Of a stretch of DNA of 64,000 nucleotides, positions 15,669 through 58,936 are shown piece by piece. The stretch lies in NCBI GenBank assembly GCA_009842675.1, contig VYEX01000002.1:7592-71591 (forward strand). The letters are read 5' to 3'. The DNA is from Acidimicrobiia bacterium (GTDB lineage Bacteria > Actinomycetota > Acidimicrobiia > Acidimicrobiales > Bin134). How positions within the stretch are numbered: the first letter of the stretch is position 1; each line of letters begins with the position of its first letter. The translations under genes were made by a program, and so were the position numbers. The notes under the pieces were generated by a model that worked only from the letters and a program-made list of their open reading frames with translations, was not told the DNA's origin and ran no database searches.

Positions 15669-15804
15669 GTGGGTAGCCGTCACCAACGCGTCCTATTCCA
15701 AAACGTGACGCAGTAGTAGGCAAGCCTGCTCCTGTAAAGTTCCGTTGCTTTCTGGAAGGATGAATGGATGCGCGAATCCGGCGAAAGGCAGGCCGCAGAA
15801 GGAA

Positions 15805-18858: not shown

Positions 18859-18869
18859 TAGGAGTGCGC

Positions 18870-23126: not shown

Positions 23127-24160
23127 CCGAATCGCGTGGCTTCCTTTGGCCGGACGATGGTGGCTCCGCCCACCGCGCTGAGTGGGAAGCCGTTTGCGTC
23201 GCATCCCGGCGGGAGAGGAAAGACCTGTCCACGGTCGTTCTCGCCGAGTATCTCCCGCCACTTGACTGCCGCCTTGCACTTTTCGGCACTCAAGGCTTCC
23301 TCGGCTAGATTCGCGAGCCTCTGAAAGACGTTGCTGGCGTTGATCCAGTCGTTTGCGTCCAAGGCCGGTTCGACCGGTGTTCCCAGTCCGGGGTCGACAA
23401 GTGGCTCATAAGGTGCTCGCTGGAATCGGTTGGCCACCTGACGGAGTGTTGCAGCGAACAAGTGGTCCCATTCGTCGCCAGTGACGACGCCCGAACTCCA
23501 GACATCGTAGGTGGCGAACTCAACGTACAAACCGCCAGGTCGCCGGTCACCGAGATGGGTGCGACGTGCTTGTCGGACCAATTTCACGATGGGCTTATAG
23601 GCATCCTGACTGCCGACGGTTGGACTCCAATCTGCTGTGCTTAGATCGCTGGATAGCTGCCCGAACCGTTCAGGGTCAGTGGTGACCCAGCCTTCCGCAC
23701 TTGGTACCCATAGGTATTGATCCTTGGTTGGAATCGCCCATCGCTCACCGTTGCGAACGGCCGGGACTGCGTCTACTGCGAATGCGGCGTTATGGTCATT
23801 GGGATTCGGGAAGTCGACTTTGACGCTGCGTGCCTGCGAAGTGACTCTGCCTCCATTCTCAACGCGGCCGTATTCCTCAACCAGCACCGTCTCAACTCGG
23901 CCATATACGTTGCCAGGGTTAGCTGAGGTATCGAGGTCGCTCAGGCGAGCAAACACGTCGACGTCCTTGCCGGGGTAGATGGCCGTGTGTCGGCTATACG
24001 AACCGATGAGGCATGTGTTGATGCCCCAAGCTTGCAAGTACTCGTCCGCTGAGAGCAGTTCCTGGATTTCGGTGTGCGCGTCAATCGCTCGTAGGCGTTT
24101 TTCGCCGTTTACCTCGATTCTGTTTAGAGCGCCTTCAAATTGGGGACGCAGTATGGCCAT
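23123..24160 (-). CDS. CBASS CD-NTase (cGAS/DncV-like nucleotidyltransferase)
   Basis: 345 residues. The nucleotidyltransferase core has the Gly-Ser motif at residues 53-54 (LIGSYSRHT), the metal-binding DxD at Asp66 and Asp68 (GKDVDVF) and the third acidic residue Asp130 (AVDAVP). All three acidic residues are kept, so it is predicted active. CD-NTases sense phage infection and make a cyclic di- or trinucleotide. The product cannot be read from sequence; a TIR-SAVED effector of another actinobacterium (Microbacterium ketosireducens) responds to a cyclic triadenylate. The protein ends in RFG, an exposed C-terminal Gly suitable for conjugation by the adjacent Cap2. The ATG at 24160 follows the effector stop after 11 bases. 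Confidence 0.9.
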   Translation of the reverse strand: MAILRPQFEGALNRIEVNGEKRLRAIDAHTEIQELLSADEYLQAWGINTCLIGSYSRHTAIYPGKDVDVFARLSDLDTSANPGNVYGRVETVLVEEYGRVENGGRVTSQARSVKVDFPNPNDHNAAFAVDAVPAVRNGERWAIPTKDQYLWVPSAEGWVTTDPERFGQLSSDLSTADWSPTVGSQDAYKPIVKLVRQARRTHLGDRRPGGLYVEFATYDVWSSGVVTGDEWDHLFAATLRQVANRFQRAPYEPLVDPGLGTPVEPALDANDWINASNVFQRLANLAEEALSAEKCKAAVKWREILGENDRGQVFPLPPGCDANGFPLSAVGGATIVRPKEATRFG

Positions 24161-24171
24161 TGTTGTTCCTT

Positions 24172-25482
24172 TCAGGGGCTGCGCTCAGGCGGTGGTGCCG
24201 TGATCGCATGGATTGGTGATCCTCCAGACCCCGAGCGCAGCACCATGCTGGGCACGTATCGAGGACCGGTGGTTGAGCTGCCAGTGGGGGAGTCTTCCCA
24301 CTCGTAGAGGTGAACTGTGAGGGTGTTCAAGGTTCGGCCAAGGAGCAAAGCGATCGGGTAGGGGCAGCGCAGGAGTAGATGCACCTCGGTCGTCTTCTGC
24401 GAATTCGCAAGGGACCGAATGCGATCAGTGATTTCTCCGACGATGGCTGAGGCCTGGTCAGAGACAAGAAGGTCTGCACTTTGGGACCGGAGGTGGGCTA
24501 TTCCCGCGTAGGTCGCGGTGCTCGATTCGGTCATATCTTCGAATGCAGTGTCACTTCGCTGCGGCAGAAGGTCGACGTAGACGAGCACGGGCCCGCGTTC
24601 CTGCTCTCTTGTAGTGAGCACATCGAAGTCGAATAGGCTGCTCGGGCCCGGTGTTGGTGCCTGTCCGGTCAATGACCAAATGTGGCCTTGGGTGTCGACC
24701 ACTTCAACTCTTCCGATGAGGGTGGTAGGGATAGCCGCGCCTAGTGCACAGGCGACTGATAGGTGGGCGCCACCGCGAATCCGGATGGCGTCGGCGCCAG
24801 CGATCGTCAGTAGCTCTGGCAACTGGCCAAGAAAGAGGCTGAGGTCCTCTAGCCCACTGGCGTGAGGGCGACGCTCCCCGGCGACAGGAGGTCGCAAGCG
24901 GAGTACGAGGTCGCCATCAAACTGCGAGGCTGATGGTGGGACGCGAGTCTGAATGTCAAACACGAGCATTCCGCCCGCGTCCTTGATTGAACTTCGTATC
25001 TGCATCATTCGACGCCGACTCAGCGAAATAGCCAGTGTGGCTTGGTCTTCGGGGCCAACTGCCTTCTGTTGGTTGAGCCCCTCTAGGGTTCCGGACTCCA
25101 GTTTGAGGAGTTGGTCAGGAGCCGAGTAGTCGAGTTCCCCGGACTCGTCTTGCTTCTCAACCACCGACCCGATCGCCAATGTGAAGGTCGGATTGCCTTC
25201 GAGGTCTAGGAGGCAGGGCAATTCGATGTCGCTGATCACTTCAGAGTGTTCAATCTCTGGGGTGATGAGAAGGACTGCCCCCGAGAGGCCAGAGGCCAGT
25301 GCCTCTTGGAGCCGCCGCTTGGTATCTCCGGGAGGGAGGTCAGTTAGGTCGTGCCAGACGGGTATTCCCGCAGCTCGAAGGGCCCACGCTAGGTCTGTGG
25401 CAATCTCCAGCCCGTCGCTCTGGCGATACGAAATGAATACCGGACCGAGCGGGTCTACGTCTGCGGCTAGGTTCTGCCCCAT
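24172..25482 (-). CDS. CBASS effector with TIR and SAVED domains
   Basis: 436 residues. The TIR domain (about 14-150) begins with VFISYRQSDG and has a candidate catalytic Glu at 87 (SDIELPC); TIR effectors of this kind degrade NAD+. The C-terminal SAVED domain (about 230-430) shows FDIQTRV, ADAIRIRGGAHLSVACALG and the late PYPIALLLGRTLN motif, and should bind the cyclic oligonucleotide. It is first in the operon, followed by the CD-NTase and Cap2. I chose the ATG at 25480-25482 because AGAGGAG lies 4 bases upstream. The longer frame starts with TTG at 25536 and has no usable spacing. Confidence 0.88.
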   Translation of the reverse strand: MGQNLAADVDPLGPVFISYRQSDGLEIATDLAWALRAAGIPVWHDLTDLPPGDTKRRLQEALASGLSGAVLLITPEIEHSEVISDIELPCLLDLEGNPTFTLAIGSVVEKQDESGELDYSAPDQLLKLESGTLEGLNQQKAVGPEDQATLAISLSRRRMMQIRSSIKDAGGMLVFDIQTRVPPSASQFDGDLVLRLRPPVAGERRPHASGLEDLSLFLGQLPELLTIAGADAIRIRGGAHLSVACALGAAIPTTLIGRVEVVDTQGHIWSLTGQAPTPGPSSLFDFDVLTTREQERGPVLVYVDLLPQRSDTAFEDMTESSTATYAGIAHLRSQSADLLVSDQASAIVGEITDRIRSLANSQKTTEVHLLLRCPYPIALLLGRTLNTLTVHLYEWEDSPTGSSTTGPRYVPSMVLRSGSGGSPIHAITAPPPERSP

Positions 25483-25681
25483 CAAACTCCTCTCAGCCAG
25501 AGCCTGGCCAAAGGCCGAATAACGTTCATGTAACAACTCCCTTGTAAGTTTGGTGATGATACCCGGACCAAGTGACAGTTCCTACCGCCCCTTTCAGGCG
25601 GAGGCCTCTTGGGCACCAGACTGGGAAGAAATACCGACGCCACAATTCAGAGGCCGCCCTCATAAGGAACTATTAGTTGCG

Positions 25682-26062: not shown

Positions 26063-26433
26063 CCACTAAGAGTTTTGACGAACTTGCCGAACCTATTGAT
26101 GCTGATCCAGTGCGCAGCGCCCGGGCGGAGGCTTACAAGCAGGAGATGGAGGCAAAGATCTTCGCCCACCAACTGGCGGAACTGCGCAGCGAGCTTGGCA
26201 TCAATCAGGTTGACCTGGCCCGGAAGCTCGGCATCACCCAGGGCGGGGTATCCAGGCTTGAGCGGTCGGTTGATCCCAAACTGTCGACACTGTGCAAGCT
26301 GACTTCCGCACTGGGTGGAACACTCCACATTGAGATCAGTGTCGGCGGACGCACTGTCAGCCTCCTGCATCCATCGTCTTCGGGATCATCGTCTCAGGCC
26401 GATTCAGACGATCCCGCCCCCGTCCCTGCCTAA
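26059..26433 (+). CDS. HigA/Xre-type antitoxin
   Basis: 124 residues. The helix-turn-helix spans about residues 35-90: HQLAELRSELGINQVDLARKLGITQGGVSRLE is a classic Xre domain split here by a canonical turn. The N-terminus may contact the toxin; the C-terminal tail is Ser/Pro-rich and disordered. It should neutralise the upstream toxin and repress the pair. The TAA stop overlaps the TAG stop of the convergent aldolase in a CTAA, so the island abuts the inositol operon with no spacer. Confidence 0.88.
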   Translation: MTTKSFDELAEPIDADPVRSARAEAYKQEMEAKIFAHQLAELRSELGINQVDLARKLGITQGGVSRLERSVDPKLSTLCKLTSALGGTLHIEISVGGRTVSLLHPSSSGSSSQADSDDPAPVPA

Positions 26434-27278
26434 TCCACTAGCTCGCGTAATGCGGCCAGGCGGGGGGCTATCAGATCAGCGATGACCTTGGGACGGTCGG
26501 CGGGAGGGGCCAAGGCGGCTTCGCCCCACAGGGCTCGGCCGACGGTGAATCCGGCGCAGCCTGAGGTCATGGCAACATCCAGTTGGGCGTGGTAGCTGTC
26601 GAAGGTGCCGCCGCCTGAAAGCAGGGTCCAGGGCATGTCGCATCGTTTGGTGATTTCCCAGCAGGTCGCGGCCCACCGGGCCGGTTCGGGGTCGTGGACG
26701 GGATCGACGGGGAAGGGCAGCTTCAACACGTCGACTCCCATGGGGGCGAAACGGTCCACGGTCTCAAGCACTATCTGGGGTCGCACCGTTGGGTCATCGA
26801 GGCCATAGAAAAGCGGTTCCACCAGCAAGGGGATGCCTACTCTGCGGCACTCGGCCAGGATTTCGGCCGTAGCCCGCTCTTGGGCGGCGGCATGGGGGCG
26901 GTCGGGCCGGTAGAGCACCAGCAGTTTGGCCGTGTCCGCGCCACAATCGGCGGCGGCCTGTACCGACCAGCCTTCCAGCAAGGTGACGGGGGCGGCTTCG
27001 GGATCGGCCATGTAACCCTGGGTCTCCAGTGCGGCGGTGAAGCCCACGCCGGGAGGAAGGGTGCCGTCGAGCAGCTGGGGGATGGAGTACTCGGGCTCCA
27101 GCATCACTCCGGTGGCTCCAGAGGCCAATCCGGCCACCAGGTCGCGCTTGAGATCGACGATGGCGTCGCTAGTCACCGAGTCGGGATTGTCCGGCGCCAG
27201 AACGCTGCGCAGCGAGTCCCGGTGGTCGATGGCCAGCACTGCGAATCGCCCGTTGTGGGTGAGGTCGGCAACGCCCAT
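26430..27278 (-). CDS. LacD-type class I aldolase of the inositol operon
   Basis: 282 residues. TIM-barrel aldolase of the LacD/tagatose-bisphosphate aldolase family with the early FAVLAIDHRDSLR segment and a candidate Schiff-base Lys186 in DVLKLPFPVD. As the last gene of an operon with iolB, C, D and G it probably cleaves 2-deoxy-5-keto-gluconate 6-phosphate into dihydroxyacetone phosphate and malonate semialdehyde. In Bacillus that step is done by the unrelated class II aldolase IolJ. The ATG at 27278 lies one base after the iolB stop. The role is inferred from context; a related sugar-phosphate aldol is possible. Confidence 0.78.
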   Translation of the reverse strand: MGVADLTHNGRFAVLAIDHRDSLRSVLAPDNPDSVTSDAIVDLKRDLVAGLASGATGVMLEPEYSIPQLLDGTLPPGVGFTAALETQGYMADPEAAPVTLLEGWSVQAAADCGADTAKLLVLYRPDRPHAAAQERATAEILAECRRVGIPLLVEPLFYGLDDPTVRPQIVLETVDRFAPMGVDVLKLPFPVDPVHDPEPARWAATCWEITKRCDMPWTLLSGGGTFDSYHAQLDVAMTSGCAGFTVGRALWGEAALAPPADRPKVIADLIAPRLAALRELVD

Positions 27279-27279
27279 G

Positions 27280-28137
27280 TCAGTTGGAGGGTACCGCGCC
27301 GGCCACCGGGAGGGTCCAGGCACCAGCGCCCCAGTCGGATTCGATCCAGGTGTGCTCGGCGGCGAAGCAGGGGGGAGTGCGGCGCTCGTCTCCAATCAGC
27401 TCCCCAGCCAGGTAGTTGAGGAAGTACATGTTGGAGCTGGGACAGGCCACCGACGTGTGGTAGCCCTTGGGCACCAGCACCGCATCGCCGTCGCGGGCCA
27501 CCACCGCTTCGTCGAATTCCTCCTCGGTGCGCCAGTTCCGGTGCATGCAATAGCCCTCGGGACGGTCCAGGCGGAAGTAGTACACCTCCTCCAGATACGG
27601 CGAGCCGTCGCGGCCGTCGTGGCAGTGGGGCGGCCACCCCGACCAGGTGCCCCGAGGGACAAACACCTCGTAGAGGATCAGCTTCTCCGCGGGCAGGGGA
27701 TGGGCCAGCGAGTGGACCACCTGGCGGTAGGCCTGGCCGCCACCCCGGATCTCCACCTTCATCTCCGAGGGCTCGAAGACCCGGGCCGGATATCGGCCCT
27801 CAGCGGGGGCCGAGCCCACTGCGGCGGTCAAAGAACCCTCAGTGGTGATCTCATAGGGCGTGCCCGGGGGCAGATACACGATTCGCCCCAGCTCCTCGAA
27901 CACCGACGTGCGGCTGATGGCGGTGTCGATGTCGCCGGCTTGCACCCGTCCCGAGCCGGATAGCGGAACGATGGCGGTCTCCCGATCGGACTCGACTCCC
28001 GACCAGGGATCGGCTGGGGTGATTTCCACCACTGAGAAGGCCACGTTGTCCCACCCGGCCGAATCCGGGGTGATGTCCAGAACCCTCCCGGGTCCCGGCT
28101 GGGGTCGGATGGGTCCTGATGCGGGGGCGGTCGCCAT
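27280..28137 (-). CDS. iolB: 5-deoxy-glucuronate isomerase (IolB)
   Basis: 285 residues, a bicupin. It isomerises 5-deoxyglucuronate to 2-deoxy-5-keto-gluconate in myo-inositol catabolism. Family features visible are the metal-binding PPHCHDGRDGSPYLEEVYYFR stretch (His, His, Glu) and the late GYHTSVACPSSNMYFLNYLAG. Two ATGs compete: that at 28143 overlaps the upstream stop in an ATGA but abuts AGGAGG, while that at 28137 has the ideal 6-base spacing, so I chose the latter. Confidence 0.95.
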   Translation of the reverse strand: MATAPASGPIRPQPGPGRVLDITPDSAGWDNVAFSVVEITPADPWSGVESDRETAIVPLSGSGRVQAGDIDTAISRTSVFEELGRIVYLPPGTPYEITTEGSLTAAVGSAPAEGRYPARVFEPSEMKVEIRGGGQAYRQVVHSLAHPLPAEKLILYEVFVPRGTWSGWPPHCHDGRDGSPYLEEVYYFRLDRPEGYCMHRNWRTEEEFDEAVVARDGDAVLVPKGYHTSVACPSSNMYFLNYLAGELIGDERRTPPCFAAEHTWIESDWGAGAWTLPVAGAVPSN

Positions 28138-28139
28138 GG

Positions 28140-29120
28140 TCATCCTCCTAGTCCTGCCGGAACAAGATCGCCAGCATCAATCTCTTGCTTGAACCGTTCC
28201 AGCAATTCCCGGGTTCCCAGCGGCTCATAGCCCAAGATCTGAGTGGTGCGAGGAGTGCGTATGGTGGTGTCGTGAGGGACGCGGGCACCGCCCAGCAATG
28301 CCATCATCTCCGGGTCGGGCGGCACCGACCTCAGCAGCGACGGGTCGTGGCCGAACACCTCACAGGCCATCTGGGCCAGCTCCATCCGTCCCGCCGGCTG
28401 GGCACCGCAGCAGTGGAAGATGCCATCGGCATCGTCGCTTGATGCCATCAGCCACATGACCTCAGCACACTCGCTGGCCAGGCTGGGGGTGGCCGTCATG
28501 TTGATGTCGTCGCCCTCCCACACCCCGAACGGCTTTCCTTGAGAAACGGCATCGAGCACGGTGGTGACGAAGTAGCCGAATCCGGGGTCTTGGCCCCGCG
28601 GCATCTCGTCTCGGGCCCAGTGGACCCCGTTCACCGCCGATACTCGTGCCACCGCGGCCCGGTCGGCCCGCAGAAGGGCAGCCTGCTCGCTGAGGGCCTT
28701 CAGCACGCCGTAGTAGTTCACCGGGTTGGGCGGGGTGTGCTCGTCGGCCCCGGTCTGGGTTCCGTCGAACACCCAGTCGGTGGAAACCAAGATGAGCTTG
28801 GCTCCGGCCCGGTTGGCTGCTTCGGCCAGGGTGAGCGTGGCGTCCACGTAACTGCGCCAGGCCAGCTCCCGCTGGGCGTAGATCCCGGCCAAGTCGTTGA
28901 GGATCATGGAGTGGACGATCACGTCGGGGTCGAATTGGGCCACGCTGGCCAGCACCGCGTCGGCCTCCAGCAAGTCCAACGGCTCTGTGGTGTAGCCCTG
29001 GGGGCTGTCGGGCACGAAGGAGTGGACGGGGCAGTGAACGGTGGCCCGGTGGCGCTCGGCGAACACCTTGACGATGTTGGAGCCGAGGAATCCCGTACCC
29101 CCGGTGACGTAGGCCCGCAC
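28140..29120 (-). CDS. RmlD-like NAD(P)-dependent sugar reductase/epimerase
   Basis: 326 residues. An extended SDR with the GGTGFLG cofactor motif at residues 7-13, STDWVF and the active-site YYGVLK (Tyr, Lys). The closest look is to dTDP-4-dehydrorhamnose reductase. It is not part of the classical Iol pathway. Its place between iolG and iolB suggests a stereospecific reduction or oxidation of an inositol isomer or derivative. GTG start with GGAGAGGAAGG upstream. Confidence 0.78.
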   Translation of the reverse strand: MRAYVTGGTGFLGSNIVKVFAERHRATVHCPVHSFVPDSPQGYTTEPLDLLEADAVLASVAQFDPDVIVHSMILNDLAGIYAQRELAWRSYVDATLTLAEAANRAGAKLILVSTDWVFDGTQTGADEHTPPNPVNYYGVLKALSEQAALLRADRAAVARVSAVNGVHWARDEMPRGQDPGFGYFVTTVLDAVSQGKPFGVWEGDDINMTATPSLASECAEVMWLMASSDDADGIFHCCGAQPAGRMELAQMACEVFGHDPSLLRSVPPDPEMMALLGGARVPHDTTIRTPRTTQILGYEPLGTRELLERFKQEIDAGDLVPAGLGG

Positions 29121-29176: not shown

Positions 29177-30184
29177 TCAGCCGATCTCGTCGACACGCAC
29201 GGGCCGCTGTTCTCTTACCGAGCGCCATGCGGCCAGTCCGATGACCAATGGGGCCCGCCCATCGGCCAGGGTGACCGGCGAGGGGGCACCCTTCATCATG
29301 TCGGCGAAGGCGGCCCATTCAGCCAGGTACGAGGGGATGTATCGCTCCAAAAAGAAATAGGGCAGCGTCGGGCTGTGCGATCCGTCGGCTGTCCGGGTCA
29401 CCGCGGTGGCGGTCAGGGGGTTCTCGGAAGCGGCCATCCCCGCCGAACCAAACGCTTCCACCCGCTGGTCGTAGCCGTAGACCGCCTGGCGGCTGTTGTC
29501 GATGGTGCTGATGGCGCCGTTCTCGTGAGTGCAGACGATCACTGCGGTGTCGAGGTCGCCCACTTCCCCGATGGCGTCGTCGATCAGCACCCCACCGGTG
29601 GCATAGACCTCGGTCACCTCGCTCCCGGTGATGAAGCGGATCATGTCGAAGTCGTGGATGGTCATGTCACAGAAAATGCCGCCGGACTCATCCAGATACA
29701 TAAGCGGAGGGGGCTCGGGATCGCGGCTGGACACCCGCACCAGATGGACGTCGCCCAAGTCGCCCGCGGCCACTCGGTCGTGCACGTAGCGGTGGCTGGG
29801 GTCGAAGCGCCGGTTGAATCCCACTTGCACCGGGATGCCCGCGGCCTGGGCCGCGGCGATGCCCCGGTCGACGTCGGCAAGGTTGAGAGCCAGCGGCTTC
29901 TCTACAAAGACGGCCTTGCCGGCCTCAGCGGCGGCCACCAGAAGGTCGATATGGGTGTGGGTGGAGGAGCAGATGGCCACCGCGTCCACATCGTCGGCCT
30001 TCAAGATCTCCTCGGGGGCCGCGGCATGGCGCGCTCCCAATTCATCGGCAACCGCGGCCGCGGCGGCGTCGACCACGTCATAGACAGCGGCCAACTCGGC
30101 GCTGGGCACCTGCTTGGCGATCAGCTCGGCGTGCATCCTCCCGATCCGCCCGCAGCCCAAGACCCCGATTCGCACCGAGCTCAT
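29177..30184 (-). CDS. iolG: Inositol 2-dehydrogenase (IolG)
   Basis: 335 residues, Gfo/Idh/MocA family. It oxidises myo-inositol to 2-keto-myo-inositol with NAD+. Visible are the GVLGCGRIGRMHA Rossmann motif, EKPLALNL with the catalytic Lys, and GGIFCDMTIHDFDMIRF with the Asp and His of the active site. The ATG at 30184 overlaps the stop of the upstream desaturase-Rieske gene in an ATGA. The frame is open further upstream but inside that gene. Confidence 0.92.
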   Translation of the reverse strand: MSSVRIGVLGCGRIGRMHAELIAKQVPSAELAAVYDVVDAAAAAVADELGARHAAAPEEILKADDVDAVAICSSTHTHIDLLVAAAEAGKAVFVEKPLALNLADVDRGIAAAQAAGIPVQVGFNRRFDPSHRYVHDRVAAGDLGDVHLVRVSSRDPEPPPLMYLDESGGIFCDMTIHDFDMIRFITGSEVTEVYATGGVLIDDAIGEVGDLDTAVIVCTHENGAISTIDNSRQAVYGYDQRVEAFGSAGMAASENPLTATAVTRTADGSHSPTLPYFFLERYIPSYLAEWAAFADMMKGAPSPVTLADGRAPLVIGLAAWRSVREQRPVRVDEIG

Positions 30185-31611
30185 GATCCGGTCTTCTCGG
30201 ATTTCGATTGCAGGCTCGAGACCACTCGTCCGTTGCGAATCTCCACGGAGTACAAGGTAAGGGGATCGGTGGCCGGAAACCGAACCGCCTCGCCGGTTCG
30301 AAGGTCGAAGCGGCCGTTGTGCTTGGGGCACTCCACCAAACAGTCAAGCACCACGCCCTCGGCCAGATAGGCCTGGCCGTGGGTGCAGAGCCCTTCGGTG
30401 CATACCAGGGTGCCGTCGTCTAGTCGGAAGAGGGCGTAAGTCTCGTCGCCCACAACTATTTGGCGGGCCGATCCGGACTCGGGGTCGTTGGCCGGACCGA
30501 GGTCGAACAACCCGTCGTGGCGGTTGCCGGCCCACACGGTGTGCCCGGTGTTGACAAACGATCGTCCAGCTTCGGACACCGTGGGCACGTCGTCGCGGGG
30601 CTTGTCGTAGGTCGGATTCCGCCATTGGCGCAGCAAGGTGGAGAGGATGTCCCGATAGGCCGTCCATGTATTGGGTGAAGCTGGGGCCAAGTGGTCTTTC
30701 ACCTCGTGGTGAAGGGCGGGCAGGGCGTAGTAGGGAACGGTGGGGAAGATGTGGTGCTCAACGTGGTAGTTCATGTTGGAGTACAGGAACCGGAAGACAG
30801 GATTCATGTACACGGTGCGGGTGTTGAGACGGTGGTCGAGCACATCTTCCCGAAGACCGGCGTGCTGGGTGATGGCGAAGAAGATCATCAGCCACGCGCC
30901 GTAGACCGTGGGCAAGCCGACATAGAGCAACGGCACGATGGACCAAATCGCAATCGACCAGGCCGTGACCCCGGCCAATATGGCTATGTAGGCCCGCGAC
31001 TCCCACTTGAGCTTGCCGAGCTCGTCGGCGGGAATGAACGACCGGGCCTCGTCGTCGATGCGCCCCACGGCGTGTTTGGCGGTGCGGATCACCATGTTGG
31101 GCACGTTCAAAACGGGTACGAACAACAACGCGATCGAGGTAGGTGAGGAGGGGCGGGGAAAGATGATCTCGGCGTCGCGGCCCACCACGATGGTGTCGGT
31201 GTGGTGGCGGACGTGCGACCAGCGCCACAGGGTGGGCTGGCGCAACAGCATGAATGAGGCCAAGTAGTACACCACGTCGTTGAGCCACTTGGTCTTGAAG
31301 GCGGTGCCGTGCCCGCACTCATGCCAGCGGGAGTCGCCGGCCCCGCCGTACAGGGCGCCGTAGGCGGCGAAGGCCGGGACCGCCCACCAGGTGCCCAGCG
31401 ACAAGAAGGCCAGATAGCCGAACCCGGCCAAGAGGCCGAGCCAGGCGACGGTATCGAGGGCCGCTCTCGCGTTGCCCCGCTCTTGGAGTTGGCGCAGGCG
31501 CACGGGGTCGATGGGCGGGCGGAACCACTCGGCCTCCACCAACCCGCCGGCTGCGGCCCGGTCTGCTTCGGGGCCTCCGACCCGGTAGTCCCGCCGGTCG
31601 GAACTCACCAT
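30181..31611 (-). CDS. Fused membrane desaturase/hydroxylase and Rieske ferredoxin (MocD-MocE-like)
   Basis: 476 residues. The N-terminal part (about 45-330) is a fatty-acid-desaturase-fold diiron enzyme with hydrophobic segments and the three His boxes HECGH (97-101), HVRHH (133-137) and HVEHH (283-287). The C-terminal part (about 355-465) is a Rieske [2Fe-2S] domain with ligands Cys409, His411, Cys428 and His431 (CTHG, CPKH). In Rhizobium, MocD and MocE are separate proteins that, with a reductase, are thought to demethylate the rhizopine 3-O-methyl-scyllo-inosamine. Here both are one chain inside an inositol operon, so I infer an inositol O-demethylase or hydroxylase with its own electron carrier. 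No MocF-like reductase is visible. The ATG at 31611 overlaps the iolD stop by 7 bases. Confidence 0.88.
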   Translation of the reverse strand: MVSSDRRDYRVGGPEADRAAAGGLVEAEWFRPPIDPVRLRQLQERGNARAALDTVAWLGLLAGFGYLAFLSLGTWWAVPAFAAYGALYGGAGDSRWHECGHGTAFKTKWLNDVVYYLASFMLLRQPTLWRWSHVRHHTDTIVVGRDAEIIFPRPSSPTSIALLFVPVLNVPNMVIRTAKHAVGRIDDEARSFIPADELGKLKWESRAYIAILAGVTAWSIAIWSIVPLLYVGLPTVYGAWLMIFFAITQHAGLREDVLDHRLNTRTVYMNPVFRFLYSNMNYHVEHHIFPTVPYYALPALHHEVKDHLAPASPNTWTAYRDILSTLLRQWRNPTYDKPRDDVPTVSEAGRSFVNTGHTVWAGNRHDGLFDLGPANDPESGSARQIVVGDETYALFRLDDGTLVCTEGLCTHGQAYLAEGVVLDCLVECPKHNGRFDLRTGEAVRFPATDPLTLYSVEIRNGRVVSSLQSKSEKTGS

Positions 31612-33497
31612 CCCACTCGTTGGCCAGCTTTGCCGGAGTCCATGGCGGCCCGGGCGGCCCGCACGTCGGGGCTGGTGCTCACCTCGGGCACGCCCACCTC
31701 CCAGAAGGAGCCGCCCTCGGTCCAGCGATAGGCGTGGGTGTTCAAGGCGATCACATAGGTGCTCTCGGAGCCTCGGGCCCGGCCGAATGCGGCTTCGAGT
31801 TCGGCTATGGATGTGACGGTTTTGGTTTGGCAACCCATGGAGGCGGCGTGGGCGGCAAAGTCAACCGCAGTTGGCTCCTGCACTCGGGAGTCGGCGATGA
31901 GGTTGTTGAACGGCACCCCTCCTTGGGCCAATTGCAGGCGATTGATCACTGCGTAGCCGCCGTTGTCGCACACGATGACGATGAGCTTGTGGCCGGTGAG
32001 CACGGTGCTATAGAGATCGCTGTTCATCATCAGGTAGGAGCCGTCGCCCACCAGCACCACCACCTCTCGGTCGGGTAGGGCCATCTTGGCCCCCCATCCG
32101 CCGGAGATCTCATAGCCCATACAGGAGTAGCCGTATTCGCAGTCGAAGGAGTGAACAGTTTGGCCGCGCCATCCGTTGACCAGCTCGCCGGGGAACCCGC
32201 CGGCCGCGGCCAGCACATAGGTGGACTCGTCGGCCAGCCGGTCCACCACCCCCACCACCTGGGCATAGGTGGGGAGCTCGGCGTGGTCGATTTGGGGGTC
32301 GTCAGAGGCCCGACCGGTCGATGCCACCGCCTCGGGAGCGGCGATCTTGTCGATGTAGGCGTGGTATTGCGATGTCTCCGACGAGGCCCGGTCGGACCAC
32401 TCCTCTGGGGCCCGGTAGTTGTCCAGCACATCGCCCAGTTCGGCTAAGCCCTCGCGGGCGTCGGCTACCAGGGGTAGGGAACGGTGCTTGGTGGCGTCGA
32501 AGCGGGCCGCGTTCAAGCCGACGATCTGCACGTCGTCGCCCCCGCCGAACACCGTCCACGATCCGGTGACGAAGTCGCCCAGGCGAGTGCCTACTGCCAA
32601 AACCACGTCGGCCTCGGCGGCCATGGCATTGGCCGAGGTGCAGCCGGTGACCCCGATGGGACCGCAGTTGAGCGGGTGGTCGGCCACCAATGAGGTGCGA
32701 CCGGCCACCGTTTCCACCACCGGGATGTTGTGATCCTCGGCGAAGGCTCGGAGCTGGTCTTCGGCCAACGACCAGTGGACCCCACCGCCGGCCACAATGA
32801 GGGGCCGCTCGGCGTTGGCCAGGGCAGCGGCGGCTCGGCGCAATTGGCTGGTGTCAGGGCGGGGGCGGCGGATCTCGTGGGTGGCCTCTTCGAAAAAGCG
32901 GGAGGGGAAGTCGAAAGCCTCGCCTTGGACGTCTTGGGGGAGGCTGATGAAGGCCGGGCCGCAGTCGCCGGGGTCGAGCATGACGCCGAGGGCGTTGGGC
33001 AGCGAATGAACCAACTGCTCCGGCGTGGTGATGCGGTCCCAGTAGCGGACGACGGGCTTGAAGGCGTCATTGACGGTCAGCGTCGGGTCGCCGAAGTGCT
33101 CCACCTGCTGGAGCACCGGGTCGGGTATACGGCTGTTGAAGGTGTCGCCGGCCAGCAGAAGCAGGGGCATCCGGTTGGCCATGGCCACTGCGGCCGCAGT
33201 CACCATGTTGGTGGCGCCGGGGCCGATGGAGCTGGTGGCGGCCATGATGCGGCGGCGGCGGTTGGCCTTGGCGTAGGCCACCGCGGCCAAGGCCATGCCC
33301 TGCTCGTTCTGGCCCCGCCAAGTGGGCAGCGCCTCACCGGCCTGCTCCAGTTCGTGGCCCAAACAGGTGACGTTGCCGTGGCCGAAGATGGCAAACACGC
33401 CGGCAAAAAGGGGAACGGTTTGGCCATCGACCTCGATTCGCTGCGCGGCCAAGTAGCGCACGATGGCCCCGGAGGTCGTCAGTCGGACGGTTTTCAT
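31605..33497 (-). CDS. iolD: 3D-(3,5/4)-trihydroxycyclohexane-1,2-dione hydrolase (IolD)
   Basis: 630 residues. Thiamine-diphosphate enzyme that opens the inositol-derived ring to 5-deoxyglucuronate. Visible are IFGHGNVTCLG and GQNEQGMA near the N-terminus with the conserved Glu, and the ThDP/Mg motif beginning GDGSYLMMNSDLYS near residue 490. The length fits IolD. ATG follows GGGAGGACAGCC, a good ribosome binding site. It is the largest enzyme gene of the operon. Confidence 0.95.
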   Translation of the reverse strand: MKTVRLTTSGAIVRYLAAQRIEVDGQTVPLFAGVFAIFGHGNVTCLGHELEQAGEALPTWRGQNEQGMALAAVAYAKANRRRRIMAATSSIGPGATNMVTAAAVAMANRMPLLLLAGDTFNSRIPDPVLQQVEHFGDPTLTVNDAFKPVVRYWDRITTPEQLVHSLPNALGVMLDPGDCGPAFISLPQDVQGEAFDFPSRFFEEATHEIRRPRPDTSQLRRAAAALANAERPLIVAGGGVHWSLAEDQLRAFAEDHNIPVVETVAGRTSLVADHPLNCGPIGVTGCTSANAMAAEADVVLAVGTRLGDFVTGSWTVFGGGDDVQIVGLNAARFDATKHRSLPLVADAREGLAELGDVLDNYRAPEEWSDRASSETSQYHAYIDKIAAPEAVASTGRASDDPQIDHAELPTYAQVVGVVDRLADESTYVLAAAGGFPGELVNGWRGQTVHSFDCEYGYSCMGYEISGGWGAKMALPDREVVVLVGDGSYLMMNSDLYSTVLTGHKLIVIVCDNGGYAVINRLQLAQGGVPFNNLIADSRVQEPTAVDFAAHAASMGCQTKTVTSIAELEAAFGRARGSESTYVIALNTHAYRWTEGGSFWEVGVPEVSTSPDVRAARAAMDSGKAGQRVGW

Positions 33498-33510: not shown

Positions 33511-34686
33511 TCACTCGATCTCTAGCGATACCACATCTTCCCAGGCGCCGGTCTCCCAACTCTTCAGCATGGCGGCTTGCACGCTCACGCAGGCCAGAGC
33601 CTGCTCCATGCCCGCGCTGTGGGGTCGGCCCTCGGCCACTGCGGTTAGGAACTCGTGGTCTTGGATGGTCACCATGTCTTCGAAGCCGATGGAGTTGGCG
33701 TCGCCGGGCACAAAGGCGCCGTGATAGGGGTGGCGTTCGCTGGCCCGCACGGTGGTGTAGCCCTGCTGGGGATCGGACGCCCTGAACAACTGAAGCTCGT
33801 TCATGGTTTCGTGGTTCCAGCTCAGCGCACCTTCGGTGCCGAATATGTCAAAGGCCATTTGGCTTTGGGGGCCGACGATGGACCTGCTTGATTCGAACAC
33901 GCCGTGGCTTCCGTTGGCGAATACGGCCAGTGCGGCAAAGTAGTCCTCGTTGGTGACCTCGCCGGTCGGGTCGCCGGGGCTGCCTCGGTCGTAGTGGGTG
34001 CCGGCTCCCGAGGGAAGCGGGCGCTCCTTTATGAAGGTCTCCCCGATGCCCACCACCCGGGAAATGGGACCGTTGAGCATCAAAGCCAGGTCCACCGCGT
34101 GGCTCAGAATGTCGGTGGTGGCGCCGTGACCGGCCTGGTCGATCAGAAAACGCCAGGAGAGCAGGCCCATGGGGTCGGCCCCATACATGGAGAAGAACCG
34201 GCCTCGATAGTTGGATATCTGCCCCAGCTGACCGGTGGCGATGAGCTCTCGGGCGTAGAGCACCAGGGGGGCGAAGCGGTAGTTGTAGCCCACCCCGGTG
34301 ACGATTCCGGCCTGGCGGCAGGCACGGGCTATTCGGGCGGTTTGGCTGGGGGTGCCTCCCACCGGCTTCTCGCAGAACACGTGCTTTCCGGCCTCGGCGG
34401 CCGCGGTGGCCAATGGCTCGTGCAGCATGTTGGGAGCGCAGACGACGACAACATCCACGTCGGGATGCTCGACTGCGGGCTCCCAGTATTCGGTGGCCTC
34501 CCGGAAACCGAAGGCACTGACCGCGGCATGGCGGCGGGACTCCACGTTGTCGGAGCAGATCACCAAGTCCACGTCGTAGGCCCGGTCTTCGAACAGCATG
34601 GGCAGTCGCAGGTAGGAGCGGGTGTGGGCCTGCCCCATCCAGCCGAAGCCCACTACGGCCAGACCGAGTCGCTTTGGGGAGGTCAT
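33511..34686 (-). CDS. Gfo/Idh/MocA family dehydrogenase, probable inositol-isomer dehydrogenase
   Basis: 391 residues, distinct from the IolG of this operon. Rossmann motif VVGFGWMGQAH, CEKPVGG with the catalytic Lys, and DILSHAVDLALML with the active-site Asp/His pair. The position suggests oxidation of scyllo- or another inositol, or of an inosamine, as for IolX/IolW or MocA. The ATG at 34686 overlaps the stop of the hydroxyacid dehydrogenase gene in an ATGA. Confidence 0.85.
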   Translation of the reverse strand: MTSPKRLGLAVVGFGWMGQAHTRSYLRLPMLFEDRAYDVDLVICSDNVESRRHAAVSAFGFREATEYWEPAVEHPDVDVVVVCAPNMLHEPLATAAAEAGKHVFCEKPVGGTPSQTARIARACRQAGIVTGVGYNYRFAPLVLYARELIATGQLGQISNYRGRFFSMYGADPMGLLSWRFLIDQAGHGATTDILSHAVDLALMLNGPISRVVGIGETFIKERPLPSGAGTHYDRGSPGDPTGEVTNEDYFAALAVFANGSHGVFESSRSIVGPQSQMAFDIFGTEGALSWNHETMNELQLFRASDPQQGYTTVRASERHPYHGAFVPGDANSIGFEDMVTIQDHEFLTAVAEGRPHSAGMEQALACVSVQAAMLKSWETGAWEDVVSLEIE

Positions 34687-35648
34687 GACCCGGTCCCTAC
34701 CCGGCGGTCCACTCCTGGATGGGCTGCGGCCTGGTCGAGCAGATGCTCGGGCATGCCGCCCCGCAGCCAGGCGAGAGCCTGGTCCAGCGCTTGGCCTATC
34801 AGCCTGACGATGCCGACTGTGGTGGTCGAGGCCACATGGGGGGTGACGACCACGTTGACGCGGCCCAGCAGCGGGTGGTCGGGGGGCAGCGGCTCAGGCT
34901 CTGTCACGTCGAGGCCCGCGCCGGCCACGTGACCCGAGTCGAGGGCGGCCAACAGGGCTTCTTGGTCTAGCAGCGCCCCTCGGGCGCAATTGATGATGAT
35001 CACTCCGGGGCGCATAGCAGCCAGCGAATCCGAGTTGATGATGTGGTGGGTCTCGGGGGTGGCGGGCGCGTGCAGCGACACCACGTCGGCTTCGGCCCAA
35101 AGCTGGTCGAGGCCGACCAATTCCCCCATGGGCGCAACCTCGAGATAGGGGTCGTAGATCAGAACGCTCATCCCCAATGCCTCGGCGTAGCGCCCCAGAA
35201 GAGAGCCGATCCGCCCGCAGCCCACCAATCCCAGCACTCGCCCGTCCAGCTCCAGCGCACCGGGGCCAGTGAGTCGGCCAGGACCACCTGCGGTACCGGC
35301 GGCCACGCGTGCCTCTGAGCCCTTGAGCCGCTTGGCCACCGAGAGCATCAGCGCCAGGGCGTGCTCGGCGGTGGAAACCGTGGGGGCGTCGGGGGTGTTG
35401 GTGGCGGCCACCCCGTGGGCGGCGCAGGCGGCAACGTCCACGTTGTCGTAGCCGATGCCCGAGCGGGCCACCACTTTGAGGTTGGGCAGCCGGCGGCAGG
35501 CATCGTCGTCCCACGGCCGGTCGGCGGCCACCACCACGCCGTCGGCGTGATCTGGGCCATCAACCAACTCCACATCGGGGGGAATAACCAGCTCAGATGG
35601 GGGAGTGCGGTCGATCCATATCCGGATCTTGTTGTCTGATTCGGTCAT
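34683..35648 (-). CDS. D-isomer-specific 2-hydroxyacid dehydrogenase
   Basis: 321 residues. The NAD-binding domain has LGLVGCGRIGSLLGRY, the catalytic Arg in INCARGALLDQ, the Glu in DVTEPEPLP and the His in TPHVASTT. It resembles phosphoglycerate or hydroxypyruvate reductases. It is not part of the standard Iol pathway; in this operon it may handle a hydroxyacid or lactone-derived product. Translationally coupled to the next gene. Confidence 0.85.
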   Translation of the reverse strand: MTESDNKIRIWIDRTPPSELVIPPDVELVDGPDHADGVVVAADRPWDDDACRRLPNLKVVARSGIGYDNVDVAACAAHGVAATNTPDAPTVSTAEHALALMLSVAKRLKGSEARVAAGTAGGPGRLTGPGALELDGRVLGLVGCGRIGSLLGRYAEALGMSVLIYDPYLEVAPMGELVGLDQLWAEADVVSLHAPATPETHHIINSDSLAAMRPGVIIINCARGALLDQEALLAALDSGHVAGAGLDVTEPEPLPPDHPLLGRVNVVVTPHVASTTTVGIVRLIGQALDQALAWLRGGMPEHLLDQAAAHPGVDRRVGTGS

Positions 35649-35682: not shown

Positions 35683-36699
35683 TCATTGTCCTCGGGCCAG
35701 CATCTCGTCGATCTCAGCAGGGGTGGGCATGGCATCCGAACAGGCCAGGCGACCAGCCACGATAGCCCCGGCGGCATTGGCGCGGGTGACGATTTCTACC
35801 GGATCGAGCCCGGCCAGCAGCCCGTCGGCCAGCGACCCGCCGAAGGCATCGCCGGCGCCGAGGCCGCAGACCACCTCAACCGGCATTGGGCGCACCTCGG
35901 CGCGGCTCTCCGGGGTGGCCACCAGCACTCCATCGGCCCCTTGTTTCACAATGGCCAGCGACACTCCTCGGTCCAGCAGCCGATCAGCGGCGGTATGGGG
36001 ATCGGAGGTGCCGATGGCAATCTCGCACTCGGTGCGGTTGCCCACCGCCACCGTGGCGAGCTCCACGGCCTGGCTGATGTGGGTGCTGGCCTCCTCGCGG
36101 GAAGTCCAGAAACTGGGCCGGAAGTCCAGGTCGAGCACGGTATGGGGGCGGCGGTTGCGCTGTTCCAGAACCCTCATCACGGTGGATCGGGATGGTTCCT
36201 GGGCGAACCGGGATCCGGCGGTCCACAGCACCGGCACGGTGGCGGCGATGTCGGGAATGTCGGCAGGCCGGAGGTTCATCTCCGGTCCGCGGGGTTCGCG
36301 GTAGAACAGCAGCGGCGGGTCGGTCGGGGGGTCGAGGGCGCAGAAGGCCAGCGCAGTGCGCAGGTCAGGGTCGGTGGACACGAAGCGGTTGTCCACCCCG
36401 AACTTCTCGGCCAGGTCGGCCCGGATGTACTCGCCAAAACCGTCGTCGCCCACTCGAGTAACCACTGCGGCCCTCCTTCCCAGTCGGGCGCAGGCCACGG
36501 CCACATTGGTGGGGGAGCCGCCAATCGACTTGGCAAAAGTCTGGACCTTGCTCAGCGGAACACCGCTTTGCTGGGGATACAGATCGACGCTGACCCGCCC
36601 GATTGTCAGCACTTCAAGATTCGCGGGGCTACGGCCTACATCGGCAGCTTCAAGATCAGTTGGAGCGCGGGCAGCGTCAGCCGCCTGGGTGTCAGGCAC
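35683..36699 (-). CDS. iolC: 5-dehydro-2-deoxygluconokinase (IolC)
   Basis: 338 residues, PfkB/ribokinase family. It phosphorylates 2-deoxy-5-keto-gluconate at C6. Visible are LTIGRVSVDLYPQQ, the GGSPTNVAVACARLG signature and the C-terminal GLGAGDAFGGSLADGLL motif with the catalytic Asp. A roughly 25-residue N-terminal extension (MPDTQAADAARAPTD...) precedes the fold; the true start may be later. The second iol gene cluster member after the transporter genes. Confidence 0.93.
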   Translation of the reverse strand: MPDTQAADAARAPTDLEAADVGRSPANLEVLTIGRVSVDLYPQQSGVPLSKVQTFAKSIGGSPTNVAVACARLGRRAAVVTRVGDDGFGEYIRADLAEKFGVDNRFVSTDPDLRTALAFCALDPPTDPPLLFYREPRGPEMNLRPADIPDIAATVPVLWTAGSRFAQEPSRSTVMRVLEQRNRRPHTVLDLDFRPSFWTSREEASTHISQAVELATVAVGNRTECEIAIGTSDPHTAADRLLDRGVSLAIVKQGADGVLVATPESRAEVRPMPVEVVCGLGAGDAFGGSLADGLLAGLDPVEIVTRANAAGAIVAGRLACSDAMPTPAEIDEMLARGQ

Positions 36700-36731: not shown

Positions 36732-37511
36732 CTAAGTACCAGCTTGAGCCAATTCGTGCTGTAGTGCTTCGAGTTCGGCGCCACCGGCCATGAGCTGGGT
36801 CAGATCAGCCTGCGACAACTCTTCTTTGGCCCAGTTGCCCATGGACACTCCCCGGTTGAGGATCACGAAGCGGTCGCCCACCGGGTAGGCGTGGTTGGGA
36901 TTGTGGGTGATGAAGATCACCGCCAACCCCTGGTCGCGGGCTTCCACAATGCGCCGCAGCACCACGCCCGACTGCTTGACGCCCAGTGCCGAGGTGGGCT
37001 CGTCGAGGATCAGCACCCGGGCGCCGAAGTAGCTGGCCCGGGCGATGGCCACCGACTGCCGCTCACCGCCGGAGAGCGTGCCTACGCTCTGCTCAACGTC
37101 GCGGATGTCGATGCCCATCTTGGCCATCTCCTCTTTGGCGATGCGCTTGGCCCCCTCGATATCGATTTGGCGGAAGGGCCAGATGCCGGTCTTGGGCTCA
37201 GCACCCAGGAAGAAGTTTCGCCACACCGACATCAGCGGCACCATGGCCAAGTCCTGGTACACGGTGGCGATCCCTCGACCCAGCGCCTCGCGGGGAGAGT
37301 TGAAGCGCACCTCCTCGCCTTCCATCAAGAGCGTGCCCTCGTCGTGCTGGTGCACGCCGGCCAGGATCTTGATGAAGGTGGACTTGCCCGCGCCGTTGTC
37401 ACCCAACACGCAGGTGACCTCGCCGGGGTTCACCGTGGTGCTCACCCCGGTTAGGGCGATGATGTTCCCGTAGAACTTCGAGATGTTGTTCAGTTCGAGA
37501 AAGTCGGCCAT
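36732..37511 (-). CDS. Sugar-type (CUT2) ABC transporter ATPase, single domain
   Basis: 259 residues. Walker [11 protein letters not shown]-loop YQDLAMVP, signature LSGGERQ, Walker [13 protein letters not shown] and the H-loop (THNPNHA). CUT2 ATPases such as RbsA or MglA have two tandem ABC domains (about 500 residues); this has one, so it must work as a homodimer, like the short FrcA-type ATPases. ATG at 37511 follows AAGGAGA. It energises the permease and binding protein encoded upstream. Confidence 0.92.
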
Positions 37512-37563
37512 CAGCAGGTCTCCTTGAGGTTCTTGGTAGTCCGAATTGTCTGCCGGGAGAATG

Positions 37564-39792
37564 TCATCGGACCTTCTCCGCTTGAGAGCGCACGTAGTTG
37601 TTGACCAGTACCGCCACCAGCAGCAGGGCACCCAGCACCAGGAAGCGCCAGTCGCTGTTCCAAGTGGCGAATCCGATTCCGGAGGTGATCATGCCCCAGA
37701 TCACCGCGCCGATGGCGGCGCCGATGGCCGATCCGTAGCCGCCGGTGAGCAAGCAGCCACCGACCACCGCCACGATGATGTAGCGGAACTCGTTTCCGTC
37801 GCCCACGTTGGCCTGTACTGAGTTGAGCCGGAAGGCGATCACCATGCCGGTGATCCAAGCCGATGCCGAAACAAGCATGAACAGCGTGGTCTTGGTGCGG
37901 GCGGCGGGCACACCTACTGAGCGCGATGCCTCCTTGTTGCCGCCTACCGCGAAAATCCAGTTGCCGAACTGGGTGCGGGCCAGGACCCAGGCCCCCACTA
38001 CTGCAAACAACAAGAACAGCATCACACCCACACCGAATCGGGTTTCGGCTCGGGTGGCAGCCAGTTCTTCGCTGGTGATGAACATCAGCTTGGCCGCGAT
38101 GCCCAGCATCACTGAACCCAGCCCGACGAAGACCAGCGATCGGCCCACACTCTCGTCGGAGGTGAACAGCGTGCGGTAGAGCGTGGCCAAGGCGAAGACC
38201 GCGAAGGCCACGATGCCTCCCTTGGCCACCGCCATGATGATGCTGTAGAGAATTCCGTCGCCGTCGGCCAATTCCAGGATCAACGAAACCAGTCCTGCGG
38301 CCAAACCGAGCACCGTCCCGATTTGCCGAGCGAGGGGTCCGTGAATCGGGGGTGGCGGGGCACTTGTGCGCCGAGCGGCAATCAGCCGGGCGATGGCGGA
38401 GGCCGCCAGAAGGAGCGCGATCAACAGCAGCGCGGTGAACAGCTCCACCCGCAGCTTGCGGGAACCGGCTTCCGACTGGATGAAGAAGGCCAGGATCACG
38501 ATGCCCACCGAGGTAAGGAGGGTGAACAACACCGCCAGTCCTCGGCGCCGGGCGGCAATGCTGAGCAGCACCACCCCGGAAATGGCCAGGATGCCGAACA
38601 GGATGGCTCGGGCGCCCTGCACGGTGATCATGTAGCTGACCGCGGGAATGAGGGCGATGAGGGCACCGATGGCCGGGTATCCCACGCTGACCCGGCCCAG
38701 CGCGGCCAGTACGGCTAGAACCCCAGTGGCGCCGATGCCGATGGCCAGCACGGCGCGTCCCGGTGTACCGGTCAAGAAGTCGAGGCGATCGGCGTTGTTG
38801 GAGTCCATGACCGCGGCGACCAATATGGCTCCGACGATGGCTACAACCCCGGCGATCAGGAATTGGATCACCCGCGGGTCGTGCTCTGTCGGGGCTGGCT
38901 CACGCTCGGCCGGTTGGTAGCGGGCCAGACACCAGCCAGCCACCCCCACTAACACTCCCGCTCCGGTGATGATCCCGAAAATCCAGTTGGAGCTCCTGCC
39001 GTCTTGGTTGAGCAGCAGGATGTAGCCGATGGCACCTACGGCCGCGCCGATGGCGGAGATCAGGTATCCGCCCATGTTGGGCTTCTCGCGTCGGGCGTAG
39101 GCCAACTCCATGGTGCCCAGGATCAAGACGACCGCGCCGATGATGAGCAGGCCGCTCCAGGCCCAGTCTCGGTCGTCCCAGATGTGACCATTTCGGACCC
39201 AGGTCGCACCGAAGATGTTGTCCCAGAACTCATAGCCGCCCGAGCGGTCGAGACCTTCAGCGATCACCTTGTTGGTGAACAGCTTGGTGAAGCCGAGCTT
39301 GGCTCCGATGAGGATGAAGAACGTGCCCAGGGTGACGATGAAGCTGGGTAACGACGTTTTGTCTACCAGCGTCCCGTTGAACCAGCCGATGGCCAAGGCA
39401 AAGGCCAGCGAAAGGGGCACCGCGAGGTGCAGGCTGAGCCCGGCACCGCCCAACTCGGCGGTGTCGCTGCTCAACAAAACCACTATTACCGCGGTAGCCC
39501 CGGTCATGGACCCCGAGGAGAGGTCGAACTCTCCTCCGATCATCAGCAACGCCACCGGTATTGCCATCAGGCCGAGGGTGGCGGCCACATCCAGATAGTT
39601 GGCTGTGCCCCCTGCGGTGCCAAACGGCGCCGAGACCAGCCAGAACAGCAGCCAGACGCCGACCGCGCCGATAAGGGCGCCAATCTCCGGTCTGGTCAAC
39701 AGCTGCTGGACCGGTCCTCGGTGGGCTAGTCGCTCGTCTTCTACCGGCGGCGAGCTATCCGTAGTGTCAGTCGTAGTGGTCGCTTCGGCCAC
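37564..39792 (-). CDS. Extra-large CUT2 ABC transporter permease
   Basis: 742 residues, about twice the usual 320-350 for this family. The N-terminal half has the first family block ([16 protein letters not shown] and [10 protein letters not shown]). The second family block sits at the far C-terminus ([41 protein letters not shown]). Between them, about residues 225-590, lie roughly nine additional hydrophobic segments with short charged loops. The insertion is not a second permease copy because it lacks both family blocks. The N-terminus is Thr/Asp-rich and cytoplasmic. It should transport an inositol-type substrate with the adjacent ATPase and binding lipoprotein. Confidence 0.88.
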
Positions 39793-39939: not shown

Positions 39940-40983
39940 CTATCGGGTTCCCTGGGACACCAGTGCCTTGACCTCTGCCGCATTGGCGGTGTCGACGAAG
40001 CCCGGACCGGTGAGGATGGGCAGGCCGCCGCCCGCGGTGTTCAGGTTGGTGGCTTGCAGGTGCATCAAGATGACCGGCAGGTAGCCCTGGAGGTACTGCT
40101 GCTGGTCGACTGTGAAGGCCACGTTGCCGGCCTCAATCTGATCGATGAGGTCACTGGACAGGTCGAAGCCGCCGATGATGAGGTCCCGTCCGGCTTGCTC
40201 GCCGGCCGCAAGGGCCCGCAAGGGCAGGTTCGGACCGACACCGAGAACGCCGTCGATGCTCTCATCGCCCTGGAGGATGGCGGCAATGGTGTTCTGCTGC
40301 TCATCTGGGGTGGCGTCGAGGCCGACGAACTCCGAGGTCACCTGGCCGTTGAAGGTCTCAGCCAAGCCATTGCAGCGCTCTTCCAGAGCCACGTTGGTCT
40401 GCTCCTGGCGGGCGCAGAGCACGTGGGTGGCACCCAGAGCGTTGAACCGCTCGCCGGCGCCGTTGCCGGCAACGGTCTCGGTTTGTCCGATGTGGGTGGT
40501 CGCGCCGAGGTCCTTGTAGTTGTTCACACCCGAGTTGAGCGTGTACAGCGGGATGCCTGCGGCGACAACGGCCTCAGCAGCCGACTGGACGCCAGCCGGG
40601 TCGGCCAGCGAGATGGCGATGCCGCTGGAGCCGGCGGCGATGGCCGCCTCGATCTCCTGGGCTTGCCTCAGGGCGTCGTTGTTGGAGCCGAAGTAGACCA
40701 CTTCACAGCCGATGGCTGCGGCGGCGTCACGCACGGCCACCTCAACCACTGACCAGAAGGTGCCGGAGTCACCGTGGGTGATGACGTGGTAGGTGTGGTC
40801 GCAACCCTGGGCGGGGTCGACTTCCACAGCCTCCGTCGGCGCTGGAGCTTCAGTGGCTGGTGCCGCTGCTTCGGTAGGTTCGCTGGGTGCAGGTTCGCTG
40901 GCGTCATCGTCGTCGTTGCCGCAGGCCGCGACTACGAGCGTGAACGCCAGGAGCAATGCAAACAGCTTCCATAGCTTTCTCAT
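39940..40983 (-). CDS. Sugar-binding lipoprotein (CUT2 type, periplasmic-binding-protein-like I)
   Basis: 347 residues. Signal peptide with lipobox VVAAC at about residue 21, then the acidic CGNDDDD leader and a Pro/Ala/Glu linker to about residue 58. The type I binding fold follows: YHVITHGDSGTFW, a variant of the ribose/inositol-binding family start, then GSSGIAISLADP and GFDLSSDLIDQI. It should capture an inositol or inositol derivative outside the membrane. The following permease gene is separated by two hairpins. Confidence 0.9.
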   Translation of the reverse strand: MRKLWKLFALLLAFTLVVAACGNDDDDASEPAPSEPTEAAAPATEAPAPTEAVEVDPAQGCDHTYHVITHGDSGTFWSVVEVAVRDAAAAIGCEVVYFGSNNDALRQAQEIEAAIAAGSSGIAISLADPAGVQSAAEAVVAAGIPLYTLNSGVNNYKDLGATTHIGQTETVAGNGAGERFNALGATHVLCARQEQTNVALEERCNGLAETFNGQVTSEFVGLDATPDEQQNTIAAILQGDESIDGVLGVGPNLPLRALAAGEQAGRDLIIGGFDLSSDLIDQIEAGNVAFTVDQQQYLQGYLPVILMHLQATNLNTAGGGLPILTGPGFVDTANAAEVKALVSQGTR

Positions 40984-47514: not shown

Positions 47515-47521
47515 GGCGCTC

Positions 47522-49431: not shown

Positions 49432-49450
49432 ACACCCGGAGGGGAACACA

Positions 49451-50446: not shown

Positions 50447-50478
50447 GGGTTCTCCCCTCCGGTAACCCGTAAGCGAAC

Positions 50479-58935: not shown

Positions 58936-58936
58936 A

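Follow-up and report, generated by a model that had tools for sequence, protein, structure and literature searches.

A MocD–MocE-like diiron–Rieske fusion in the inositol operon of an acidimicrobial actinobacterium, a candidate demethylase of methylated inositols

The window, that is, the whole stretch of DNA that was analysed, comprises 64,000 nucleotides of contig VYEX01000002.1 from an actinobacterium, as a first, sequence-only reading had supposed; a genome search grouped the host with the Acidimicrobiia. Its minus strand carries, from 41926 to 26430, an operon for inositol catabolism in which iolG, iolD, iolB, and iolC all scored above their curated cut-offs. The genes of the operon, in the order in which it runs, and the parts of the fusion protein considered below are as follows:

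41012–41926, minus strand: divergent iolE-like TIM barrel (TIGR04379, 150.9 bits; cut-off 290)
39940–40983, minus strand: ABC transporter substrate-binding protein (SBP; Peripla_BP_4)
37564–39792, minus strand: ABC transporter permease (BPD_transp_2)
36732–37631, minus strand: sugar ABC transporter ATPase (PF00005)
35683–36699, minus strand: iolC (TIGR04382, 346 bits; cut-off 300)
34683–35648, minus strand: D-2-hydroxyacid dehydrogenase, SerA-like (profile match)
33511–34686, minus strand: Gfo/Idh/MocA dehydrogenase, levoglucosan-dehydrogenase-like (profile matches)
31605–33497, minus strand: iolD (TIGR04377, 844 bits; cut-off 715), with a 7-bp overlap with the start of the fusion
30181–31611, minus strand: MocD–MocE-like fusion (476 aa; ATG at 31611, TGA at 30181)
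30670–31392, minus strand: membrane diiron (FA_desaturase) domain of the fusion (residues 74–314; Pfam PF00487, invariant His boxes, AF2 model)
30514–30579, minus strand: interdomain linker of the fusion (approximately residues 345–366, containing the low-pLDDT residues 349–361)
30250–30492, minus strand: Rieske [2Fe-2S] ferredoxin domain of the fusion (residues 374–454; Pfam PF00355, nearest solved structures)
29177–30184, minus strand: iolG (TIGR04380, 412 bits; cut-off 355), whose start overlaps the stop of the fusion (ATGA)
28140–29120, minus strand: RmlD-like SDR (PF04321)
27280–28143, minus strand: iolB (TIGR04378, 216 bits; cut-off 205)
26430–27395, minus strand: LacD/DeoC-type aldolase (PF01791), probably for the IolJ-like step

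No gene of the operon reached the curated cut-off for iolE, the iolE-like gene included. The operon contains no ferredoxin reductase (MocF), PanB-like, or purU gene, and no aminotransferase or MocR-type gene. Elsewhere in the window, CBASS-type defence genes for an oligonucleotide cyclase, an E1–E2 protein, and a TIR–SAVED effector occupy positions 21582–25536 and are adjoined, at 15745–21548, by genes for a type III restriction-like helicase (weak match) and a type III methyltransferase. On the plus strand, a catabolic cluster (47459–60951) encodes a creatininase-family protein, an ABC transporter, a GMC oxidoreductase, a molybdopterin dehydrogenase, a class II aldolase, a luciferase-like protein, and a class III aminotransferase.

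The ORF from 31611 to 30181 has no internal stop over its 476 codons and overlaps both iolD and iolG. The sequence-only reading had described it as MocD and MocE joined in one polypeptide between these two genes, and this description held. Pfam searches identified FA_desaturase at residues 74–314 (E = 3.4e−35) and Rieske at residues 374–454 (E = 5e−15). Against the Rhizobium leguminosarum A1 cluster, the first part was 47% identical to MocD (339 aa) and the second 48% identical to MocE (73 aa). When 42 fused proteins were aligned, neither the nine box histidines (97, 101, 133, 136, 137, 250, 283, 286, and 287) nor the ligands of the Rieske cluster (C409, H411, C428, and H431) varied; the diiron component of the fusion is homologous to MocD, and its His boxes are intact. 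The top NCBIfam match of the Rieske part was MocE (TIGR02377), at 79.6 bits against a curated cut-off of 136.15, and because it lies below that cut-off, we refer to the protein as MocDE-like rather than as proven MocDE. As the operon also lacks a linked MocF and the mocCABR context (a MocR-type regulator and aminocyclitol genes), it would be wrong to class the protein as MocDE in the strict sense. The same one-ORF architecture occurs in approximately 40 other assemblies, at 43–91% identity, which rules out chance and an assembly or frameshift artefact as the origin of the fusion.

In the AF2 model of the fusion (pLDDT 86, pTM 0.80), a helical domain of membrane type is connected through a low-confidence linker (residues 349–361) to a Rieske domain, and the modelled diiron domain resembles the folds of membrane desaturases and AlkB. 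Solved structures found by sequence matched the Rieske half only; the Foldseek matches also fell mostly in this half, with dioxygenase Rieske ferredoxins as the nearest solved structures. VIA-align of the model gave Z 20.9 over 295 residues with a chain of a chloroplast FtsHi complex (known by its entry title), Z 17–18 with dioxygenase Rieske ferredoxins, and Z 12.5 with AlkB–AlkG (8f6t; 291 residues, rmsd 5.0, 15% identity, model residues 32–453). The predicted fold does not specify the substrate.

A MocD homologue was present in 14 of 296 Acidimicrobiia genomes. In a wider survey of 564 relatives, in which each species was represented by one genome, the 80 best loci were compared. Among the loci listed, the single-ORF D–E form was general in actinobacteria, and separate D and E ORFs were general in Pseudomonadota and Bacillota. 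The fusion is thus an architecture of a whole lineage in the Acidimicrobiia and other actinobacteria and is not unique to the host. ORFs of approximately 750–790 aa with a third part were found in Verrucomicrobiota and in one Acidobacteriota and one Bacteroidota locus, and in the two that were checked (L100:9956–12244 and L097:8710–11085), the third part was an NqrF-like flavin reductase; these ORFs apparently form a self-sufficient D–E–F chain. Nine further loci have such long ORFs (L080, in which the ORF is longer, L085, L091, L093, L096, L103, L105, L107, and L113). In a maximum-likelihood tree of the diiron domain, the actinobacterial fusions formed one clade with support of 100/98 (one entry being from a truncated contig) and the long fusions another (100/100), and two Chloroflexota fusions were placed elsewhere. 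Because the fusions are split across this tree, the architecture would most simply have arisen at least three times, as actinobacterial D–E, Chloroflexota D–E, and D–E–reductase.

The search for other fused MocDE proteins and their neighbourhoods that the sequence-only reading had proposed thus yielded one actinobacterial clade, and iol genes lay within the examined flanks in 27 of its 44 entries, most subclades being represented and the gene order varying (17 of the 44 had no iol neighbours, several of them on short contigs). IolD was encoded in 9 of the 14 Acidimicrobiia genomes that bear MocD, compared with 37 of the 282 others (Fisher p = 2.8e−5, relatedness ignored), and the fusion and iolD lay within approximately 10 kb of each other in eight of the nine genomes with both; in the ninth, the fusion was broken by contig ends. 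Separate mocD and mocE genes also occurred near iol genes in Defluviimonas, in Devosia, and, together with a reductase, in a further acidimicrobial family (G123). Conversely, iol clusters without the fusion exist, which makes it an optional add-on. Several of them retain SerA-like, RmlD-like, and Gfo/Idh genes, and the SerA-like, RmlD-like, and levoglucosan-dehydrogenase-like genes, all present in fusion-free iol clusters, were rejected as parts of a demethylation module. A 2025 study of the acidimicrobial order UBA5794 described iol operons in sediment and sponge lineages and does not mention mocD (PMC12008989).

These neighbourhoods also bear on whether the protein desaturates acyl lipids, such as phosphatidylinositol chains, with its position in the operon incidental. 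The FA_desaturase fold, the His boxes, and the membrane-type helices of the model are what such an enzyme would have, but we consider this explanation very improbable. The DesA and DesB models gave 26–31 bits against cut-offs of 500, the Rieske donor is related to dioxygenase ferredoxins, the fusion overlaps iolD and iolG, and its deep linkage is with catabolic rather than lipid genes. Unlinked fused copies had mixed neighbours (ROK kinase, Ldh_2, a TIM barrel with Gfo/Idh, and one enoyl-CoA hydratase). Among the homologues checked, the enoyl-CoA hydratase occurred in L044 only, the neighbours were mostly iol, sugar-type, or mixed, and few fused proteins adjoined lipid genes; a rule of lipid-gene neighbourhoods, which the sequence-only reading had named as evidence against its proposal, was therefore not found.

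The strongest reason for preferring demethylation over acyl desaturation is that C1 enzymes recur beside MocD, although this is an association and not proof. Rhizopines, which include 3-O-methyl-scyllo-inosamine, are catabolised by mocCABRDEF (PMC6668481, PMC10107442). This gene content is present on pRLa11 of R. leguminosarum A1, in the order iolE, Gfo/Idh, SBP, MocR-type, mocD, mocE, and mocF, beyond which lie a PanB-like gene and purU; in Peteryoungia, mocDEF, the PanB-like gene, iolG, and purU share one region. The PanB-like gene was found in 252 plasmid records, compared with 268 for MocD, with nearly equal genus counts and the same leading genera. It is not an ordinary PanB, since PanB models, whose cut-offs are 207–272, gave it only 92–131 bits. 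In rhizobia, this gene (PF02548) almost always accompanies mocD, and it recurs in other lineages (L120:12747–13589, L114:16280–17095, L059:2294–3097, L071:11266–12216, and L160:8701–9486). Among actinobacteria, it was present in only two loci, both acidimicrobial iol loci. From these associations, the PanB-like protein may handle the C1 unit freed by demethylation. In the host genome, the search for this gene gave a single 36% partial match, which may be an ordinary PanB, and purU had no match above its cut-off.

Some relatives of MocD lie beside genes for other methylated compounds. One Chloroflexota D–E fusion is located within a sarcosine-oxidase operon (L094:771–9049) consisting of a homocysteine-methyltransferase-like gene, soxB, soxA, soxG, the fusion, and an FAD oxidoreductase gene (the first and last read from the sequence only), which suggests a role in N-demethylation there. 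In small alphaproteobacterial genomes, pairs of divergent MocD and PanB-like genes adjoin GbcA-like, GBBH-like, or sugar-acid genes. At L158:9359–17544, two divergent mocD genes, mocF, mocE, and a PanB-like gene lie between sugar-type ABC transporter and lactonase/dehydratase genes, a cluster that looks like one for O-methyl sugar catabolism. The Chloroflexota operon and the GbcA-like and GBBH-like neighbours would favour the view that the window protein itself removes N-methyl groups, or that its substrates are methylated aminocyclitols or compounds of the betaine type; the iol operon would then consume the ring that is released, or its proximity would be a coincidence. We regard this as distinctly unlikely, as genes for an aminotransferase, a sarcosine oxidase, or betaine use are absent from the window operon and the linkage of the fusion is to iol genes. 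Of the substrates proposed in the sequence-only reading, O-methyl cyclitols stand as the most likely class, with the C1 genes beside relatives speaking for demethylation; inosamines are weak candidates because the operon has neither an aminotransferase nor a MocR-type gene.

Taking these lines together, we consider it probable, by a modest measure, that the fusion is a membrane diiron monooxygenase with its own Rieske ferredoxin, which O-demethylates methylated cyclitols for the iol pathway. It would operate as MocD and MocE do together, and as AlkB would with its carrier tethered to it. The reaction, substrate class, and serving reductase that we infer would be arranged as follows. An O-methylated cyclitol would be imported by the ABC transporter of the operon, and electrons from NAD(P)H would pass through an unlinked ferredoxin reductase to the Rieske domain and then to the diiron site, which would hydroxylate the methyl group. 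The resulting hemiacetal would collapse to formaldehyde and free inositol (or inosose, if the ring is oxidised first), and the freed inositol or inosose would be degraded by IolG, IolE, IolD, IolB, IolC, and the aldolase. The genome encodes one MocF-like reductase homologue (41%), unlinked to the operon, with squalene/phytoene-synthase-like and thiolase-like neighbours (read by eye). It also encodes a mycothiol-dependent formaldehyde dehydrogenase (658 bits; cut-off 512.9), which would remove the formaldehyde.

Judged by gene context, such O-demethylation and the hydroxylation of a deoxy- or C-methyl-cyclitol look alike. The fusion might therefore oxidise another ring compound, of the deoxy-inositol/quercitol or C-methyl inositol type, for the iol pathway without any demethylation: the genes around it would be identical, the window operon has no C1 gene, and AlkB and similar diiron membrane oxygenases hydroxylate unactivated carbons. 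However, the relatives lie repeatedly beside C1 genes (PanB-like, purU, and sarcosine oxidase), and the sole genetic precedent, rhizopine mocDEF, involves an O-methyl compound; such an oxidation is thus rather unlikely in our judgement.

Pinitol, ononitol, and other methylated inositols are abundant plant solutes, and the open-access literature searched yielded no characterised enzyme by which bacteria demethylate them. The diiron–Rieske protein of the iol operon, preferred here as an O-demethylase, is a concrete and testable candidate for this role. More tentatively, and with reservations as to its breadth, we suggest that, within the “fatty acid desaturase” family, the branch that includes MocD could comprise widespread Rieske-coupled diiron O- and N-demethylases, which have been fused repeatedly with one carrier or with both (D–E and D–E–F) and work with a C1-accepting PanB-like enzyme, the actinobacterial fusion being the methyl-inositol branch. 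If this were true across the family, hundreds of proteins annotated as “fatty acid desaturase” would bear the wrong name, and C1 metabolism would gain a new participant in the PanB-like partner.

Among the closest known systems are MocD, MocE, and MocF of rhizobia, which reportedly act in 3-O-methyl-scyllo-inosamine catabolism (Bahar et al. 1998, as cited in PMC10107442). The window protein shares with them homologous diiron and Rieske components and a setting of cyclitol catabolism through the iol pathway; it differs in being one polypeptide, in lying inside a full iol operon with no linked MocF, MocR, or aminotransferase, and in scoring below the MocE cut-off. In toluene-4-monooxygenase, a diiron hydroxylase takes electrons from the Rieske protein T4moC, and the enzyme has a soluble diiron fold, separate subunits, and aromatic substrates. 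The fusion likewise pairs a diiron oxygenase with a Rieske ferredoxin donor, but in a membrane-type fold and a single polypeptide. AlkB–AlkG (8f6t) offers a possible counterpart for the membrane fold, as a membrane diiron hydroxylase that aligned together with its electron carrier; unlike the fusion, it uses rubredoxin rather than a Rieske protein and acts on alkanes, and its identity is low. Finally, a P450 system of marine Flavobacteriia O-demethylates 6-O-methyl-D-galactose to the free sugar and formaldehyde (PMC10033563). Oxidative demethylation, as proposed here, and a gene beside sugar catabolism are common to both, whereas that system is a heme P450 with separate redox partners and the window protein is a diiron–Rieske enzyme.
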